Origin: Chloroflexota bacterium
GTDB taxonomy: Bacteria > Chloroflexota > Limnocylindria > Limnocylindrales > CSP1-4
Direction: 5' to 3'
Assembly (NCBI GenBank): GCA_021825385.1
Contig: JAKAHU010000005.1
Location: 1 to 32,257, forward strand
DNA length: 32,257 nt
Below, piece after piece: positions 14,631 to 31,750 of this stretch (the stretch's first letter is position 1; each line of letters begins with the position of its first letter). The position numbers and the translations under genes were made by a program. Below the pieces are notes generated by a model. The model was not told where the DNA came from. It saw nothing but the letters and a program-made list of their open reading frames with translations, and did no database searches.

Positions 14631-15878
14631 TCAGCGGCTCACGCCGTACGTCTTTGCGGTCTCGATCATCGCGGCGAGGTTTTCGGGCTTCGCCTCGTCG
14701 AGCATCACCGACGTGTCCACGATGTAGCCGCCGTCGCGCCCGAGCAGGTCGATCAGCCGACGCGTCGTGGCCGCCACCTCGTCCGGCGTGGCGGCGAGGA
14801 GCTGGATGTTGGGCACGCTGCCCATCAGGCAGACCCTGCCCGCCAGCGCGCCGCGCGCCGCCTCGGGGCGCGTGCCCGCGAGGTGGTAGATCATCGTCCC
14901 GGAGGGCACGTCCGCAATGGCCTCGAGGCGGCTCTCGAAGTCCGCCTCCCAGTACACGAGCGGGATGATGCCGAGTCCCACCAGAGCGAGCAGGCCCTCG
15001 CGCAGGTACGGCCAGTAGAACTCCCGGAACTGGGCGTCGGACATGAACTCCCGGGTGGCCTTGTGGATCCAGATCCAAACGATGGGCAGCTCGGCCGAGG
15101 CTGCCGGGGCCGCGTACTCGACGAAGATCCGAGTCGCCACCTTGAGCGCGTCGTGGAGCTTGGCGGGCCGGCGGCGCATGTCGGCGAGGATGTTGGCGGT
15201 GCCGCGCAGCGTGTCGCCGAGGATGTCGAACGGCGCCCAGTCGAAGCCCGCGTACGCGAGCGGGTAGCCCTTGGCGCGCGCCTCCTCCGTGTACTGGCCA
15301 ATCGACGCGAACCAGTCGTTGACCTCCTCGCCGGCCTGGATCGCGGCCTCGAGCGAGCGGCGGGCCTCCGGGGCGGCCAGCGCGCCGAGGCTCATCCAGC
15401 CGCTCCACATGAAGCGCCTCCAGGGCGCGGGCCGCCCGAATCCCTCCAGGGCGGCGAACTGGCGTGGCGCCCAGGTGCGGAACATGAAGTCGGACGGGTC
15501 GGCGATGAAGTCGTCGTACTCGGCCGCTGTCATGTACTCGCCCTCGACGTACTGGTACATCGCGTCGTCGGGCAGGCCGTGGCCGGGCCAGCGGAACGCT
15601 CGGTAGCCCAGCGTCTCCATGGGCTTGGCGGGGTAAGCGAGGATCGGACCGAAGTCGAGGTCCGGGGCGAACCGATCGGCGAAGGCGTGGCACGCCCGCC
15701 GAGCGGCGGCGTAGTCGGTCATCGCCTCGCGCATCGTCAGGCCGCCGTAGGTGTAGACGTACTTCTGGTACGGCCCGAACACGGGGACGCGGTCCGGGGT
15801 CCGCTGCGCCACCGCGTCGCGCACGCGCTGCTGGCGGGCGGCGTAGGCGGCCGCGGGGTCGTCGTTGAACTCGCGCAT
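14631..15878 (-). CDS. UroD-family (uroporphyrinogen decarboxylase-like) methyltransferase without the Zn-Cys motif
   Basis: The protein is 415 residues from MREFNDDPAAAYAARQQRV; GGAGG lies about nine bases upstream, so the track start ten codons earlier is rejected. The family opening RVRDAVAQRTPDRVPVFG and the YDDFIADPSDFMFRT segment are typical of UroD-like proteins that work with corrinoid proteins. The corrinoid-protein gene is immediately upstream (17 bp). MtaA/CmuA-type methyltransferases bind Zn through H-x-C...C; here the corresponding places read YHLAG and VDTSVML with no Cys, so it may not methylate a thiol. It is longer than MtaA (about 340). Likely role: moving a methyl group between a methylated substrate and the corrinoid. 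True porphyrin synthesis is unlikely given the context. Confidence 0.8.
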   Translation of the reverse strand: MREFNDDPAAAYAARQQRVRDAVAQRTPDRVPVFGPYQKYVYTYGGLTMREAMTDYAAARRACHAFADRFAPDLDFGPILAYPAKPMETLGYRAFRWPGHGLPDDAMYQYVEGEYMTAAEYDDFIADPSDFMFRTWAPRQFAALEGFGRPAPWRRFMWSGWMSLGALAAPEARRSLEAAIQAGEEVNDWFASIGQYTEEARAKGYPLAYAGFDWAPFDILGDTLRGTANILADMRRRPAKLHDALKVATRIFVEYAAPAASAELPIVWIWIHKATREFMSDAQFREFYWPYLREGLLALVGLGIIPLVYWEADFESRLEAIADVPSGTMIYHLAGTRPEAARGALAGRVCLMGSVPNIQLLAATPDEVAATTRRLIDLLGRDGGYIVDTSVMLDEAKPENLAAMIETAKTYGVSR

Positions 15879-15895
15879 CTGCCGTGCCTCCGTGC

Positions 15896-16522
15896 TCAGG
15901 CGACCCAAGCCGAGGCGAGCCGGACGGCCGCCTGCGCGTTCGCGCCGTACGCGTCGGCACCGACGTAGGCCCGGACGTCCTCGTCCATGATCGCGCCCCC
16001 AATCATCACCTTGACCGTGCTGCGGAGGCCGGCCTCGGCCAGCGCCTCGACCGTCAGGCGCATCTGGTCGAACGCGATCGTGAGAAACCCCGACAGGCCC
16101 ACAACCGCGGGTCGCGCCTCGCGGACCCGCTCCACGAACACCTCCGCCGGCACGTCCACGCCAAGGTCCACCACCTCGAAGTTGTTCACCTCGAGCATGA
16201 ACGTGACGATGTCCTTGCCGATATCGTGGATGTCGCCGGCGACCGTGCCGATCACGACCCGCCCGCGGGGCGCCACCGGGGCCGCCTCGGCGAGCCGCGG
16301 CTTCACCAGCGCGGCGATCCCCTTCATCACGTCGCCCGCGATGATGAGCTCGGGCAGGAAGTACTCGCCCGCCTCGTAGCGTGCCCCGACGATCCCGAGT
16401 GCGTCCTTGGCGGCATCGAGGACCGCGGCAGGCTCGGCGCCGGCCTCGAGCCAGGCGACGGCCAGACGCGCGGCCTCGTCCTCCTCCATGTCGGCGATGG
16501 CGTGGATGAGCTCGTCTCTCAT
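15896..16522 (-). CDS. Corrinoid (cobalamin-binding) methyltransferase protein, MtaC/MtbC-like
   Basis: The protein has 208 residues. The N-terminal 85 form the helical cap (ALGIVGARYEAGEYFLPELI, with the conserved Met in GDVMKGIAAL). The C-terminal Rossmann domain has the B12 lower-ligand motif DIHDIGKDIV (D-x-H-x-x-G), then LSGFLTI and IGGAIM, which complete the D-x-H-x2-G...S-x-L...G-G signature. Such proteins carry a methyl group on cobalt between two methyltransferases, one demethylating the substrate and one passing the methyl on. Only one partner (UroD-like) is adjacent; no methyl-THF enzyme and no RamA-type reactivase are in the window. The gap to the upstream kinase is 22 bp. Confidence 0.93.
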   Translation of the reverse strand: MRDELIHAIADMEEDEAARLAVAWLEAGAEPAAVLDAAKDALGIVGARYEAGEYFLPELIIAGDVMKGIAALVKPRLAEAAPVAPRGRVVIGTVAGDIHDIGKDIVTFMLEVNNFEVVDLGVDVPAEVFVERVREARPAVVGLSGFLTIAFDQMRLTVEALAEAGLRSTVKVMIGGAIMDEDVRAYVGADAYGANAQAAVRLASAWVA

Positions 16523-25097: not shown

Positions 25098-26222
25098 TCA
25101 GCTCGCGTCCACCCAGGCTTCCCCTCGGAGCACGCGGCGAACCCGCAGGTCATCGTCCAACTCCACGAGGTGCGCGAGGCGCCCGACCTCGATCCGCCCG
25201 CGATCGTGCGCATCGAGCAGCGCGGCGGGGTTGGACGACGCGGCCTGCACGGCGCGCACCAGCGGCAGCCCTTCGCGGACGAGGTTGCGGACCGCCGTGT
25301 CCAGCGCGATCGTGGAGCCCGCGAGCGTGTCCGTGCCCACCAGCGTCGCGCGGCCGCCGCGCACGTCCACCTCGAGGCCACCCACGCGTGTGCGCCCGTC
25401 GCCCATGCCGGCGAGCGGCAGCGCGTCACTGATCAGCACCAGGCGGTCCGCCGGCTTGGTGCGCGTGATGATCGGCCACAGCGCCGGGTGAACGTGGAAG
25501 CCGTCGGCGATTAGCTCTGCGTAGGCGTCGTCGTCCACGAGCGCCGCCACCGCGAGGCCGGGGTTGCGGTGGTCGATGCCGGACATCGCGTTGAACAGGT
25601 GCGTGGTCGTGACGCGCCGCCCAGCCGCCGCGTAGCCCGCCTGCGCCTCCGCGAGCGTCGCCTGCGAGTGGCCGAGCGAGGTCACGATCCCGCGCTCGGC
25701 GAGCCGCGCGATGAGTGCCGGCGATCCCGGCAGCTCAGGCGCGATCGTCATGATCCGCAGGCCGTCGAGCACGCGCTCGATCACGGCCGGGTCGAGGTCG
25801 GCCGGGGTGCGGAGGAGCGCCGGGTCGTGCGCGCCCTTGCGCGCAGGCGCGATGAACGGCCCCTCGAGGTTGAACCCGAGCGGCACGGCGCCGTCGGCCG
25901 GGGCAATGGGCATCCAGGCCCGGACCCGCTCAGCGAAGCGGGGCAGCTCGTCGGCTGACAGCGTCGGAGCGGTGGGCAGGAACGACGTGACGCCCCGACG
26001 GAGCAGCGCCCGCGCCATGCCTGACAGGGCGTCCGTGTCGCCGGTGGCGTCGTGGCCGCCCCAGCCGTGGCAGTGGACGTCGATGAAGCCGGGCGCGACA
26101 TAGGGCCCGGCGGCGGCCGACTCGTCGGGCTCGACCGAGGCGATCTTGCCGCCCTCCACGACGACGCGGCCCGGCACCACCGCGTCGGCGAGCACGAGAC
26201 GACCAACGACGACCTCAGGCAT
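25098..26222 (-). CDS. nagA: N-acetylglucosamine-6-phosphate deacetylase
   Basis: The protein is 374 residues from MPEVVVGRLVLADAVV; the ATG overlaps the stop of the remnant ORF upstream. Amidohydrolase motifs: DVHCHGWGGHDATG (about 55), the metal/substrate Glu in FNLEGPFIAPARKGAH (about 122), TSLGHSQAT (about 190), THLFNAMSGIDHRNPG (about 212) and the catalytic Asp in LISDALPLAGMG (about 268). It removes acetate from GlcNAc-6-P in amino-sugar and cell-wall recycling. No NagB is in the window. The HutC-type regulator upstream is probably its controller. Confidence 0.92.
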   Translation of the reverse strand: MPEVVVGRLVLADAVVPGRVVVEGGKIASVEPDESAAAGPYVAPGFIDVHCHGWGGHDATGDTDALSGMARALLRRGVTSFLPTAPTLSADELPRFAERVRAWMPIAPADGAVPLGFNLEGPFIAPARKGAHDPALLRTPADLDPAVIERVLDGLRIMTIAPELPGSPALIARLAERGIVTSLGHSQATLAEAQAGYAAAGRRVTTTHLFNAMSGIDHRNPGLAVAALVDDDAYAELIADGFHVHPALWPIITRTKPADRLVLISDALPLAGMGDGRTRVGGLEVDVRGGRATLVGTDTLAGSTIALDTAVRNLVREGLPLVRAVQAASSNPAALLDAHDRGRIEVGRLAHLVELDDDLRVRRVLRGEAWVDAS

Positions 26223-26487
26223 GGACGGGCTCCCACTCGCGCACGGCCTCGTGCATTGCGAGGATGTTCTCGGCTGGCAGGTCCGGCTGGATATCGCGGA
26301 CCGGGGCGAGCTGCTGGGCGCGGTCCTCCGCACCGGGCTCGCGCGGCTCAAGGCCAGGTGCGGGCCGAACCGCCGGCAGGAGTTGACGTGCATCCCGGTC
26401 AGGCGCGTGCCGCCCAGCTCGATCGGCAGGCGGTGGGGTTCGCGACGGGCGACGAGCGGCGCGGATGCGCTCGCGGCCGGCGGGCAT
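26215..26487 (-). pseudogene. Collapsed UroD-family methyltransferase gene (frameshifts plus internal deletion)
   Basis: A 90-codon ORF here begins on an ATG overlapping the GntR stop (TGATG) and ends overlapping the nagA start, so it kept an operon position. Its frame opens RERIRAA; the next frame then reads ARREPHRLPIELGGTRLTG followed by MHVNSCRRFGPHLAL, a textbook UroD-like N-terminus. The first frame resumes with EPREPGAEDRAQQLAPV. It then passes straight into IQPDLPAENILAMHEAVREW, the family's C-terminus. So about 65 N-terminal and 25 C-terminal residues remain, with two frame changes, and roughly 250-300 residues are missing. The middle of the current ORF is therefore unlikely to be a functional protein, though the short ORF may still couple translation into nagA. 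Confidence 0.75.
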
Positions 26488-27251
26488 CAGACCTCCCGGG
26501 TCGTGTCGGGCTCGACGTCGAACCGGACGTCGAGCGCATAGCGGTCGGCGGAGTAGCGGCTCTCGGTGGCCTCGACTCGCCGCCCATGGGCATCGGCGAT
26601 CACCCGCCGCTCGACCAGCAAGGGGTCGCCGCGCCGGAGCTCCAGCAGGCGGGCGTCCTCGGCGGTGGCGGCCGCGGCGCCGATGGTCGCGGCGCCGCGA
26701 CGCAGGTGCCAGCCGCCCTGCGCCAGGGCTTCGTGGAGCGAGCCCTGCTCCACCTCGGCGGCCAGCACGATCTTGGCCACGGCAGCGATCAGCACGGCGG
26801 TCTCGAGCGCGATCGGCTCCCCATCGGCGCAGCGCAGCCGACGCACGACCACCACGGGCTCCGAGACGCGGATCCCGAGCGACTCCGCCTCCGCCCGCAC
26901 GGACGGGCGGATCTCGCGCGCCAGCAGGCGCGACGAGGGCGTGCGCCCACGGCGGCGCATCTCGTGGCTGAAGGTGAGAAGGCGGTCCGCCCGGCGGTGG
27001 GACGGCGGCTCCGCGACGTAACTGCCGCGGCCCGAGACGCGCACGATCAGGCCGTCAGCGGCAAGCCTCGCCATCGCATTCCGGGCGGTCATGCGGCTGA
27101 CGCCGAACTCGCGGCACAGCTCGGCGTCCGACGGAAGCGGGTCGCCGGGGGCCAGCATGCCGATCCGGATCCGCAGGGCCAGCTCAATGCGACGCCAGTG
27201 CGGAACGGCGGGACCCGGCGCGGGGGCGAGGCTGTCGAATGCGTCCGTCAC
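26487..27251 (-). CDS. HutC-type GntR regulator (UTRA domain), probable NagR-like
   Basis: The protein is 254 residues from GTG. The winged helix is [26 protein letters not shown] (about 25) with [18 protein letters not shown] as recognition helix and [13 protein letters not shown] as wing. The UTRA domain follows: [41 protein letters not shown] and the ending [23 protein letters not shown] regulators of the NagR/DasR group bind amino-sugar phosphates; the downstream nagA makes that likely. The start lacks a strong ribosome-binding site. Confidence 0.9.
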
Positions 27252-29570: not shown

Positions 29571-29644
29571 CCGCGTGCCACCACGCGGCCATCGTCAATC
29601 ACGGGCGTCCCCAATGGGAGTTCGGCCCGGCTCTCCGGCCGGGC
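29571..29644 (+). terminator. Two hairpins in the ADH/Tm-1-like gap (attenuator-like)
   Basis: CCGCGTG-ccac-CACGCGG (29571-29588) is a perfect 7-bp stem just after the dehydrogenase stop. GCCCGG (29625-29630) pairs with CCGGGC (29639-29644), just before the ribosome-binding site (GGGAGG) of the next gene. They may end or attenuate transcription between the genes. Confidence 0.5.
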
Positions 29645-29658
29645 GAAAGGGAGGCCGT

Positions 29659-30879
29659 ATGTCGGCGAAGACCATCCTGCTGATCGGCACGCTGGACACC
29701 AAGGGTCGGGAGTACGCCTACGTGCGCGACCTGATCCGGGCGCGCGGCCACCGGGTGTTCATGCTCGATGCCGGCGTCCTGGGCGAGCCGGTGTTCGAGC
29801 CCGACAGCCCCTCTTCAAGAACCGCGGAGGCAGGTGGAGGCACCCTGGCCGAGCTGCGCGAGCGGCGCGACCGGGGGCATGCGCTGGAGATCATGGGCCT
29901 CGGGGCCAGGTCGCTGGCCCTGGACCTGCTGGCGGCGGGCAAGTTCGACGCCGTGTTCGCGATGGGCGGGTCCGGCGGGACCTCGATCGGCGCCACCGCG
30001 ATGCAGGCGCTCCCGGTCGGCATGCCCAAGCTGATCGTCTCGACGATGGCGTCGGGCAACGTGGCCCCCTACGTCGACGTGAAGGACATCACGATGATGT
30101 ACTCCGTCGTGGACGTGGCGGGCCTCAACCGCGTCTCGCGCCGGGTGCTCGCCAACGCAGCCGGCGCGATCTGCGGGATGGCCGAGCAGGAGGCCGGCGA
30201 CGCGGAGCAGAAGCCGCTCGTGGCCGCCACGATGTTCGGGGTCACGACGCCGTGCGTGGACCGCGTCCGCGAGCGGATCGAATCGGCCGGCTACGAGATG
30301 CTGGTCTTCCACGCGACCGGCAGCGGCGGTCGCGCGATGGAGTCGCTGATCTCCGACGGGTTCGTGGCGGGCGTCGCTGACGTCACCACCACCGAGTGGT
30401 GCGACGAGCTGGTGGGCGGGGTCCTGTCCGCCGGGCCGACCCGCCTCGACGCCGCGGCCAGGGCGGGCATCCCGCAGGTCGTCTCGCTGGGCGCGCTGGA
30501 CATGGTCAACTTCGGCCCCATGGACACGGTGCCAGAGCAGTTCCGCGACCGGAACCTGTACGTCCACAACCCGCAGGTCACGCTGATGCGGACGACGCGC
30601 GAGGAGAACCGCCGCCTGGGCGAGATCATCGCGGGCAAGCTCAACGCGGCCACGGGGCCCACGGCGCTGTTCATCCCGCTCGGCGGCGTGAGCATGATCG
30701 ACGCCGAGGGGATGCCGTTCCACGACCCGGTGGCCGACGCCGCCCTGTTCGACGCCCTCCGCGCCAACCTCGACCGGTCCCGGGTGGACCTCGTCGAGAT
30801 CGACGCCAACGTCAACGACCCGGCCTTCGCCGACGCCATGGCCGATCGGCTGCTGGCCGAGCTCGCCGCCAAGGCCTGA
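29659..30879 (+). CDS. Tm-1-like ATP-binding protein (UPF0261)
   Basis: The protein is 406 residues, start ATG after GGGAGG. The opening [23 protein letters not shown] and the segments [37 protein letters not shown] and [13 protein letters not shown] are the hallmarks of UPF0261. In plants the same domain forms the N-terminal half of Tm-1, a tomato mosaic virus resistance protein; the bacterial role is unknown. The nucleotide-binding glycines (MGGSGGTS, about 101) are intact. It is followed after 28 bp by the TIM-barrel partner that is fused to it in plants. Confidence 0.92.
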
Positions 30880-30907
30880 CCGCGCTGCACCATCGAGGAG
30901 TCGCACC

Positions 30908-31750
30908 ATGCCCTTCATTCCGCGCGCCGAACTGGAGCACCGCCTGCGGGCGAACATCGAGGCCGGCATCCCGATCGTGGGCGCCGGGGCCGGCACCGGC
31001 ATCAGCGCCAAGATGGCCGAGGCCGGCGGCGCCGACATGGCGATCATCTACAACAGCGGCCGCTACCGGATGGCCGGGCGAGGCTCGCTGGCCGGCCTCC
31101 TCGCCTACGGCGACGCCAACGGGATCGTGGTCGAGATGGCGGCCGAGGTCCTCCCGGTCGTGAGCCGGATGGCCGTGCTGGCGGGCATCAACGGCACCGA
31201 CCCGTTCCGGATCATGAGGGTCTTCCTGCGCCAGCTGCGCGAGCTCGGCTTCGACGGCGTCCAGAACTTCCCGACCGTGGGCCTGATCGACGGGGACTTC
31301 CGCAAGAACCTCGAGGCCACCGGCATGGGCTACGACAAGGAGGTCGCGGCCATCGCCGAGGCCCACGCCCAAGACATGTTCTGCTCGCCCTACGTCTTCG
31401 ACCCCGACCAGGCCAGGGCCATGGTGGGGGCGGGCGCCGACCAGCTGGTCGCCCACGTCGGCCTGACGACCGCCGGCACGATCGGCGCGGGCGTGGCGTT
31501 CACGCTCGACCAGGCGATCGACAAGGTCATGGCGATGGCCGAGGCGGGCCGGAGCGTCCGCAAGGACGTCATCATCCTGTGCCACGGGGGACCGTTCGAC
31601 GAGCCGGCCAACGTGGGCGAGGCGCTTCGGCGCATGCCCGGCGTGCACGGCTTCTTCGGCGCCTCGTCGGTGGAGCGGCTGCCCACCGAGCGGGCGATCA
31701 AAGCCCAGGTGGCGGAGTTCAAGCAGCTGGCGGTGGCCGGGCCCGCCTGA
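30908..31750 (+). CDS. TIM-barrel PEP-hydrolase-like protein, Tm-1 C-terminal domain type
   Basis: The protein is 280 residues with GAGGAG before the ATG. Barrel motifs: [22 protein letters not shown] (about 20), [35 protein letters not shown] (about 120) and [12 protein letters not shown] (about 223), ending [17 protein letters not shown]. This is the family annotated as phosphoenolpyruvate hydrolase or TIM-barrel signal transduction protein. It is the natural partner of UPF0261. A true enzymatic reaction is not established for most members. Confidence 0.9.

Follow-up and report, generated by a model that had tools for sequence, protein, structure and literature searches.

A UroD-superfamily remnant between gntR and nagA

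What occupies the 265 bp that separate the gntR stop codon from the nagA start codon in this member of the Chloroflexota? The window, that is, the whole 32,257-nt stretch of DNA analysed, is the complete contig C90 of a MAG (3.54 Mb, 371 contigs; completeness 88%, contamination 7%). On its minus strand, a regulator gene, a 90-codon open reading frame (ORF), and a deacetylase gene follow one another in this order:

26487-27251, minus strand: gntR, first gene of the unit, encoding an intact GntR/UTRA (HutC-type) transcriptional regulator (PF00392, 1.1e-16; PF07702, 2.5e-33)
26215-26487, minus strand: very probable uroD-like pseudogene, coinciding with the open 90-codon ORF
25098-26222, minus strand: nagA, encoding an intact N-acetylglucosamine-6-phosphate deacetylase (TIGR00221, 248.6 bits against a cut-off of 225.65)

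The preliminary description of this DNA had proposed a decayed UroD-type methyltransferase gene that keeps start and stop overlaps with both neighbours. Both overlaps hold: at the end of gntR stands TGATG, where its TGA (26489-26487) overlaps the ATG of the ORF (26487-26485), and the TGA of the ORF (26217-26215) falls within the first codons of nagA, which starts with the ATG at 26222.

The 90-codon ORF gave no match in Pfam or NCBIfam, and neither did a composite obtained by reading through the frames. Frameshift-aware alignment to a profile built from 11 intact UroD-superfamily homologues scored the N end at 132 and the C end at 67.7. When this DNA was shuffled, the scores reached at most 29.8 (24.8 +/- 3.0) for the N end and 27.2 (20.2 +/- 2.7) for the C end, and other places in the window, covered by 468 tiles on both strands, reached at most 51.9 and 31.9, respectively. 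The background maximum of 51.9 is itself the window's UroD gene at 14631-15908, which acts as a positive control. Because both scores lie far above those of the shuffles and of all other tiles in the window, chance is excluded as the source of the similarity. We conclude that the gap is occupied by the remnant of a gene for a UroD-fold (MtaA/CmuA-like) protein.

Two opposite frameshifts and one internal deletion

Translation of the minus strand gives ARREPHRLPIELGGTRLTGMHVNSCRRFGPHLAL in one frame and DIQPDLPAENILAMHEAVREWEPVHA, ending at 26215, in the ORF frame. Alignment to the homologues resolves the remnant as follows:

26455-26487, minus strand: remnant piece 1, ORF frame, 11 residues, matching SRERVRAA at the homologue N end
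26450-26454, approximate (about 26454), minus strand: frameshift 1, 1 nt, placed by frameshift-aware profile alignment
26349-26453, minus strand: remnant piece 2, shifted frame, (V)ARREPHRLPIELGGTRLTGMHVNSCRRFGPHLAL
somewhere in 26356-26378, exact place ambiguous, minus strand: frameshift 2, 1 nt, of opposite sign, restoring the ORF frame
26305-26355, minus strand: remnant piece 3, ORF frame, GLEPREPGAEDRAQQLA, matching UroD
26304-26309 (about 26308), minus strand: deletion junction, 295 codons (885 bp) missing, placed by homologue alignment and by the blastn pieces, which overlap at remnant positions 181-185
26215-26303, minus strand: remnant piece 4, ORF frame, PVRDIQPDLPAENILAMHEAVREWEPVHA followed by the stop codon, the C end, matching VHNIQPNVPAENILAMRxALRE

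The preliminary description had read two peptides in two frames, the second following the first across a large deletion. The peptides (pieces 2 and 4) and the deletion stand, but the readable pieces number four: the 11-residue piece 1 and GLEPREPGAEDRAQQLA, the latter overlooked earlier, are added here. Pieces 1 and 3 both match UroD in the ORF frame; thus the two opposite frameshifts return the ORF to the ancestral frame ahead of the deletion.

Nucleotide comparison gives the same picture. The remnant splits into two collinear blastn pieces on the intact genes of five loci (L028, L029, L030, L040, and L041), which encode UroD-superfamily proteins of 376-384 aa (PF01208, 68 bits for L040). With L029 the pieces correspond to remnant positions 15-184 and 181-250; the other loci give similar splits, and in the intact genes the two pieces lie about 880 bp apart. 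Relative to each of the 11 homologues (11 of 11), the missing length is exactly 295 codons, and the deletion is therefore in frame. In L041, the ends of the stretch missing from the remnant read CTCGCCGAC and TTCGCCGCC, with TCGCC common to both, and the deletion probably arose between these short direct repeats.

Internal deletion between short direct repeats is a known route to bacterial pseudogenes. The remnant shares with such pseudogenes the retention of both ends, the loss of the middle, a short word at the junction, and intact flanking operon genes; its one notable difference is that the deletion, together with the paired frameshifts, leaves the frame open.

The URO-D match in an intact homologue spans residues 166-377, most of which is absent from the remnant. 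The deleted part also holds the HxC motif (H270 and C272) and H357, none of which varies among the homologues, so that the putative zinc site is gone. What is left is too short for a barrel or an active site.

Intact uroD at the same place in relatives

According to the proposal of gene decay, relatives should carry an intact gntR-uroD-nagA order. Locus L092, in genome G093 of the same family, does: ROK kinase, gntR, uroD, and nagA are all intact there, with gene ends abutting or overlapping. L060 is a second probable case (L060/L091: uroD and nagA follow the last part of gntR, with a contig edge cutting the locus). Variants of the arrangement occur in other genomes. In G090 (L117) and G091 (L118/L040), the position of gntR before intact uroD-nagA is taken by a gene for a GNAT acetyltransferase; in L030, an intact uroD adjoins nagA; in G028, gntR and uroD are separated by a gene for a 469-aa protein of no known family, which in G088 also stands before uroD; and in G023 and G040, a distance of about 4-5 kb separates uroD and nagA. 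The nagA-linked uroD genes of L092, L040, L117, L118, L060, and L027 occupy the same place before nagA as the remnant and match it at the N and C ends. In several the uroD stop overlaps the nagA start; L040 and L030 share this overlap with the window, and the order in L092 is that of the window. The nagA-linked genes are intact, at 376-384 aa, whereas 295 codons are missing from the window copy, which carries two frameshifts as well.

The gene is patchily distributed. A homologue at at least 66% identity is present in only 10 of 107 family genomes, the window's own genome not being among them, and no intact uroD orthologue was found in the 88%-complete MAG itself. In the nagA tree, the window gene pairs with that of L116 (support 100/99) inside a seven-member clade (100/100), to which the uroD-linked L117 and L118 also belong, though the tree gives no firm branching order within that clade. 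L116 and L039 are one locus, where the genes to either side of gntR and nagA keep the order of the window at 70-90% identity. In L039, the nearest orthologous locus, uroD is lost: gntR and nagA are separated by 67 bp, and this gap holds no significant uroD remnant (best local score 22, matched by 107 of 500 shuffles). Because the nearest orthologous locus does not have it, the 90-codon ORF does not count as a conserved gene; the conservation in relatives that would have spoken against decay was not seen. Elsewhere, too, gntR and nagA are close: at most of the other loci examined that carry both, no more than a few tens of bases separate them.

Several further features of these loci were recorded. 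In L030 (G038:C111, 3660-3990, minus strand), it is nagA, directly behind an intact uroD, that is frameshifted, being recognisable only to about residue 107; this mirror case shows that either gene of the uroD-nagA pair can decay. In L060 (1284-2390; RBG_16_72_14), the nagA that follows an intact uroD has to be read in two frames and includes an N run, reflecting sequencing error or decay. The 469-aa protein (L027 2347-3756, L028 596-1954, L029 9558-10946, L093 95-1477) has its gene beside uroD, nagA, or that of a ROK kinase in several genomes; neither Pfam nor NCBIfam recognises it, and a PDB search with the L027 copy gave nothing convincing. The window's genome has a second ROK-gntR-nagA locus (G000:C205; L031 2245-5134), which is without uroD. 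At 29575-31750, the window encodes a UPF0261 protein and then a PEP-hydrolase-like protein, a pair that is conserved in L039 beside the same neighbouring genes.

Relaxed constraint on the remnant

The remnant has also accumulated replacements. Over the 66 codons alignable in the ancestral frame, a small sample, it is 56-62% identical in amino acids to its homologues, vs. 68-91% for functional homologues compared with one another over the same codons. (L029 was left out of this comparison, since its last segment is mis-anchored owing to a short C end.) Mismatches at first codon positions amount to 0.24-0.33 for the remnant, vs. 0.05-0.27 among functional homologues, and third-position mismatches of the remnant show no rise. 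In this small sample of codons, such a pattern fits a gene under constraint, and working, through most of its past, with the constraint lifted only rather recently.

Nature of the lost enzyme

The preliminary description held that an amino-sugar locus once carried a methyltransferase. The gene order in L092 and the profile scores bear out a UroD-fold gene at this place; the putative methyltransferase role has its basis in the fold and in weak profile similarity. An AlphaFold model of the L040 protein from a ten-sequence alignment (pLDDT 79.5, pTM 0.86) is a UroD-type TIM barrel, for which the best PDB match by Foldseek is 4ay8 (E 7.7e-11, TM 0.64/0.71), with uroporphyrinogen decarboxylases next. 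The HxC motif of the homologues (H270-x-C272) aligns with the HxC of the Methanosarcina mazei methyltransferase 4ay7, and H357, a His in all homologues, aligns with a later cysteine of 4ay7; in 4ay7, a member of the MtaA family, these residues are the zinc ligands. The homologues thus share with MtaA/CmuA (methylcobalamin:coenzyme M methyltransferase; PDB 4ay7/4ay8) the UroD-type fold, a weak profile match, and the HxC motif. They differ from it in sequence, at 16% identity; in profile score, with 42.4 bits for L040 against TIGR01463 (MtaA/CmuA), far below the family cut-off of 235.4; in the His that replaces the later Cys; and in their surroundings, since a search with the window's own corrinoid protein as the query found no corrinoid protein gene within the 4-13 kb around nine related loci. 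Because the homologue falls below the MtaA/CmuA cut-off, has His for Cys, and has no corrinoid relative nearby, we limit the label: as far as the evidence reaches, the lost enzyme is UroD-fold, methyltransferase-like. Fold and profile similarity suggest that it may have transferred methyl groups, and, to judge from the neighbouring genes for NagA, a ROK kinase, and a GntR regulator, it may have served amino-sugar use.

The window also contains an intact UroD-superfamily gene (PF01208; 14631-15908, minus strand), which the preliminary description had taken to be echoed by the remnant. The echo is real at the level of the superfamily; closer kinship is not borne out, as the two belong to different subfamilies, with identity between this gene and the lost gene's family of 33-35% over short stretches. 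We accordingly reject the 14631 gene as an orthologue or recent paralogue of the lost gene. It overlaps a gene for a B12-binding corrinoid protein (15896-16522), and together the two (14631-16522, minus strand) are likely a corrinoid methyltransferase pair; the 14631 gene thus has its own corrinoid partner, whereas none was found near the homologues of the lost gene.

Alternative readings of the locus

The open frame across the remnant raises the question of whether something still keeps it open. The ORF begins in the gntR stop and ends in the nagA start, and the three indels jointly leave it uninterrupted, as would also be seen with a functional small ORF; in L039, a 24-codon ORF likewise runs from the gntR stop to an overlap with the nagA start, though it does not resemble the remnant significantly. 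A dead ORF could, on this showing, have been kept open through three indels as a translational bridge, by selection on operon coupling and not on protein; we consider this unlikely. That the ORF was kept as a translated gene, yielding a shortened protein or feeding ribosomes into nagA, we consider a shade less likely still. About 25-35 of its middle codons are out of the ancestral frame, and its sequence is not conserved in L039. Open frames are common at this G+C content. The arrangement itself, the one positive sign of a bridge, arises by chance about one time in three. L119, L121, and most other loci have no bridge, gntR there lying against nagA or almost so.

An assembly artefact would mean that a short repeat caused reads from an unbroken uroD to be collapsed or wrongly joined, and that the frameshifts arose in sequencing. 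This reading would draw on the fragmented state of the MAG (noted above), whose assembly was the material analysed, and on the short word shared at the junction. But a repeat of about 5 nt is much too short to mislead an assembler, replacement changes are in excess along the whole remnant, beyond the indels, and no unplaced uroD pieces were found in the MAG. Since, in addition, the orthologous locus L039 is also without uroD, we judge the risk of assembly error to be small and this reading very improbable. A point against the decay reading itself is that no second partly decayed copy was found, the 67-bp gap of L039, the nearest orthologous locus, holding no significant remnant.

The reading of the stretch as unrelated spacer, or as part of a nagA with a longer N terminus (an ATG at 26393, upstream in the nagA frame, would give a 431-aa ORF), is refuted by the profile scores against shuffles and the 468 window tiles, its residual probability being negligible: the extension is UroD remnant read in mixed frames, and nagA homologues match from about the residue at 26222 onward.

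Discussion

The stretch between gntR and nagA shows homology across broken frames, product-abolishing lesions, relaxed constraint, and an intact orthologue at the same place in relatives (L092; uroD-nagA in L117/L118). We therefore hold with high confidence that it is a UroD-superfamily pseudogene, formed by two opposite frameshifts and an 885-bp deletion. In the history that we propose, a gene for a UroD-fold (MtaA/CmuA-like) protein would once have been the middle gene of a tightly packed gntR-uroD-nagA operon; a pair of 1-nt frameshifts of opposite sign and an internal deletion of 885 bp, the latter presumably made by slippage at the short TCGCC repeats, would have turned it into a pseudogene; and the remaining 90-codon ORF would have no protein function. 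Both flanking genes are intact, and the open frame over the remnant may still let ribosomes pass from gntR to nagA.

A limited literature search found no description of a nagA-linked UroD gene, nor anything on its decay. The remnant was missed by profile libraries and ORF callers, and the case cautions against entering a 90-aa hypothetical protein or an extended nagA in annotations of this place. This is ordinary gene loss from an operon, clearly resolved, and, set against its relatives, it provides a clean example of the loss of a middle gene from a compact operon. For this Chloroflexota family, the results point to a patchily kept partnership between nagA and a UroD-fold enzyme.
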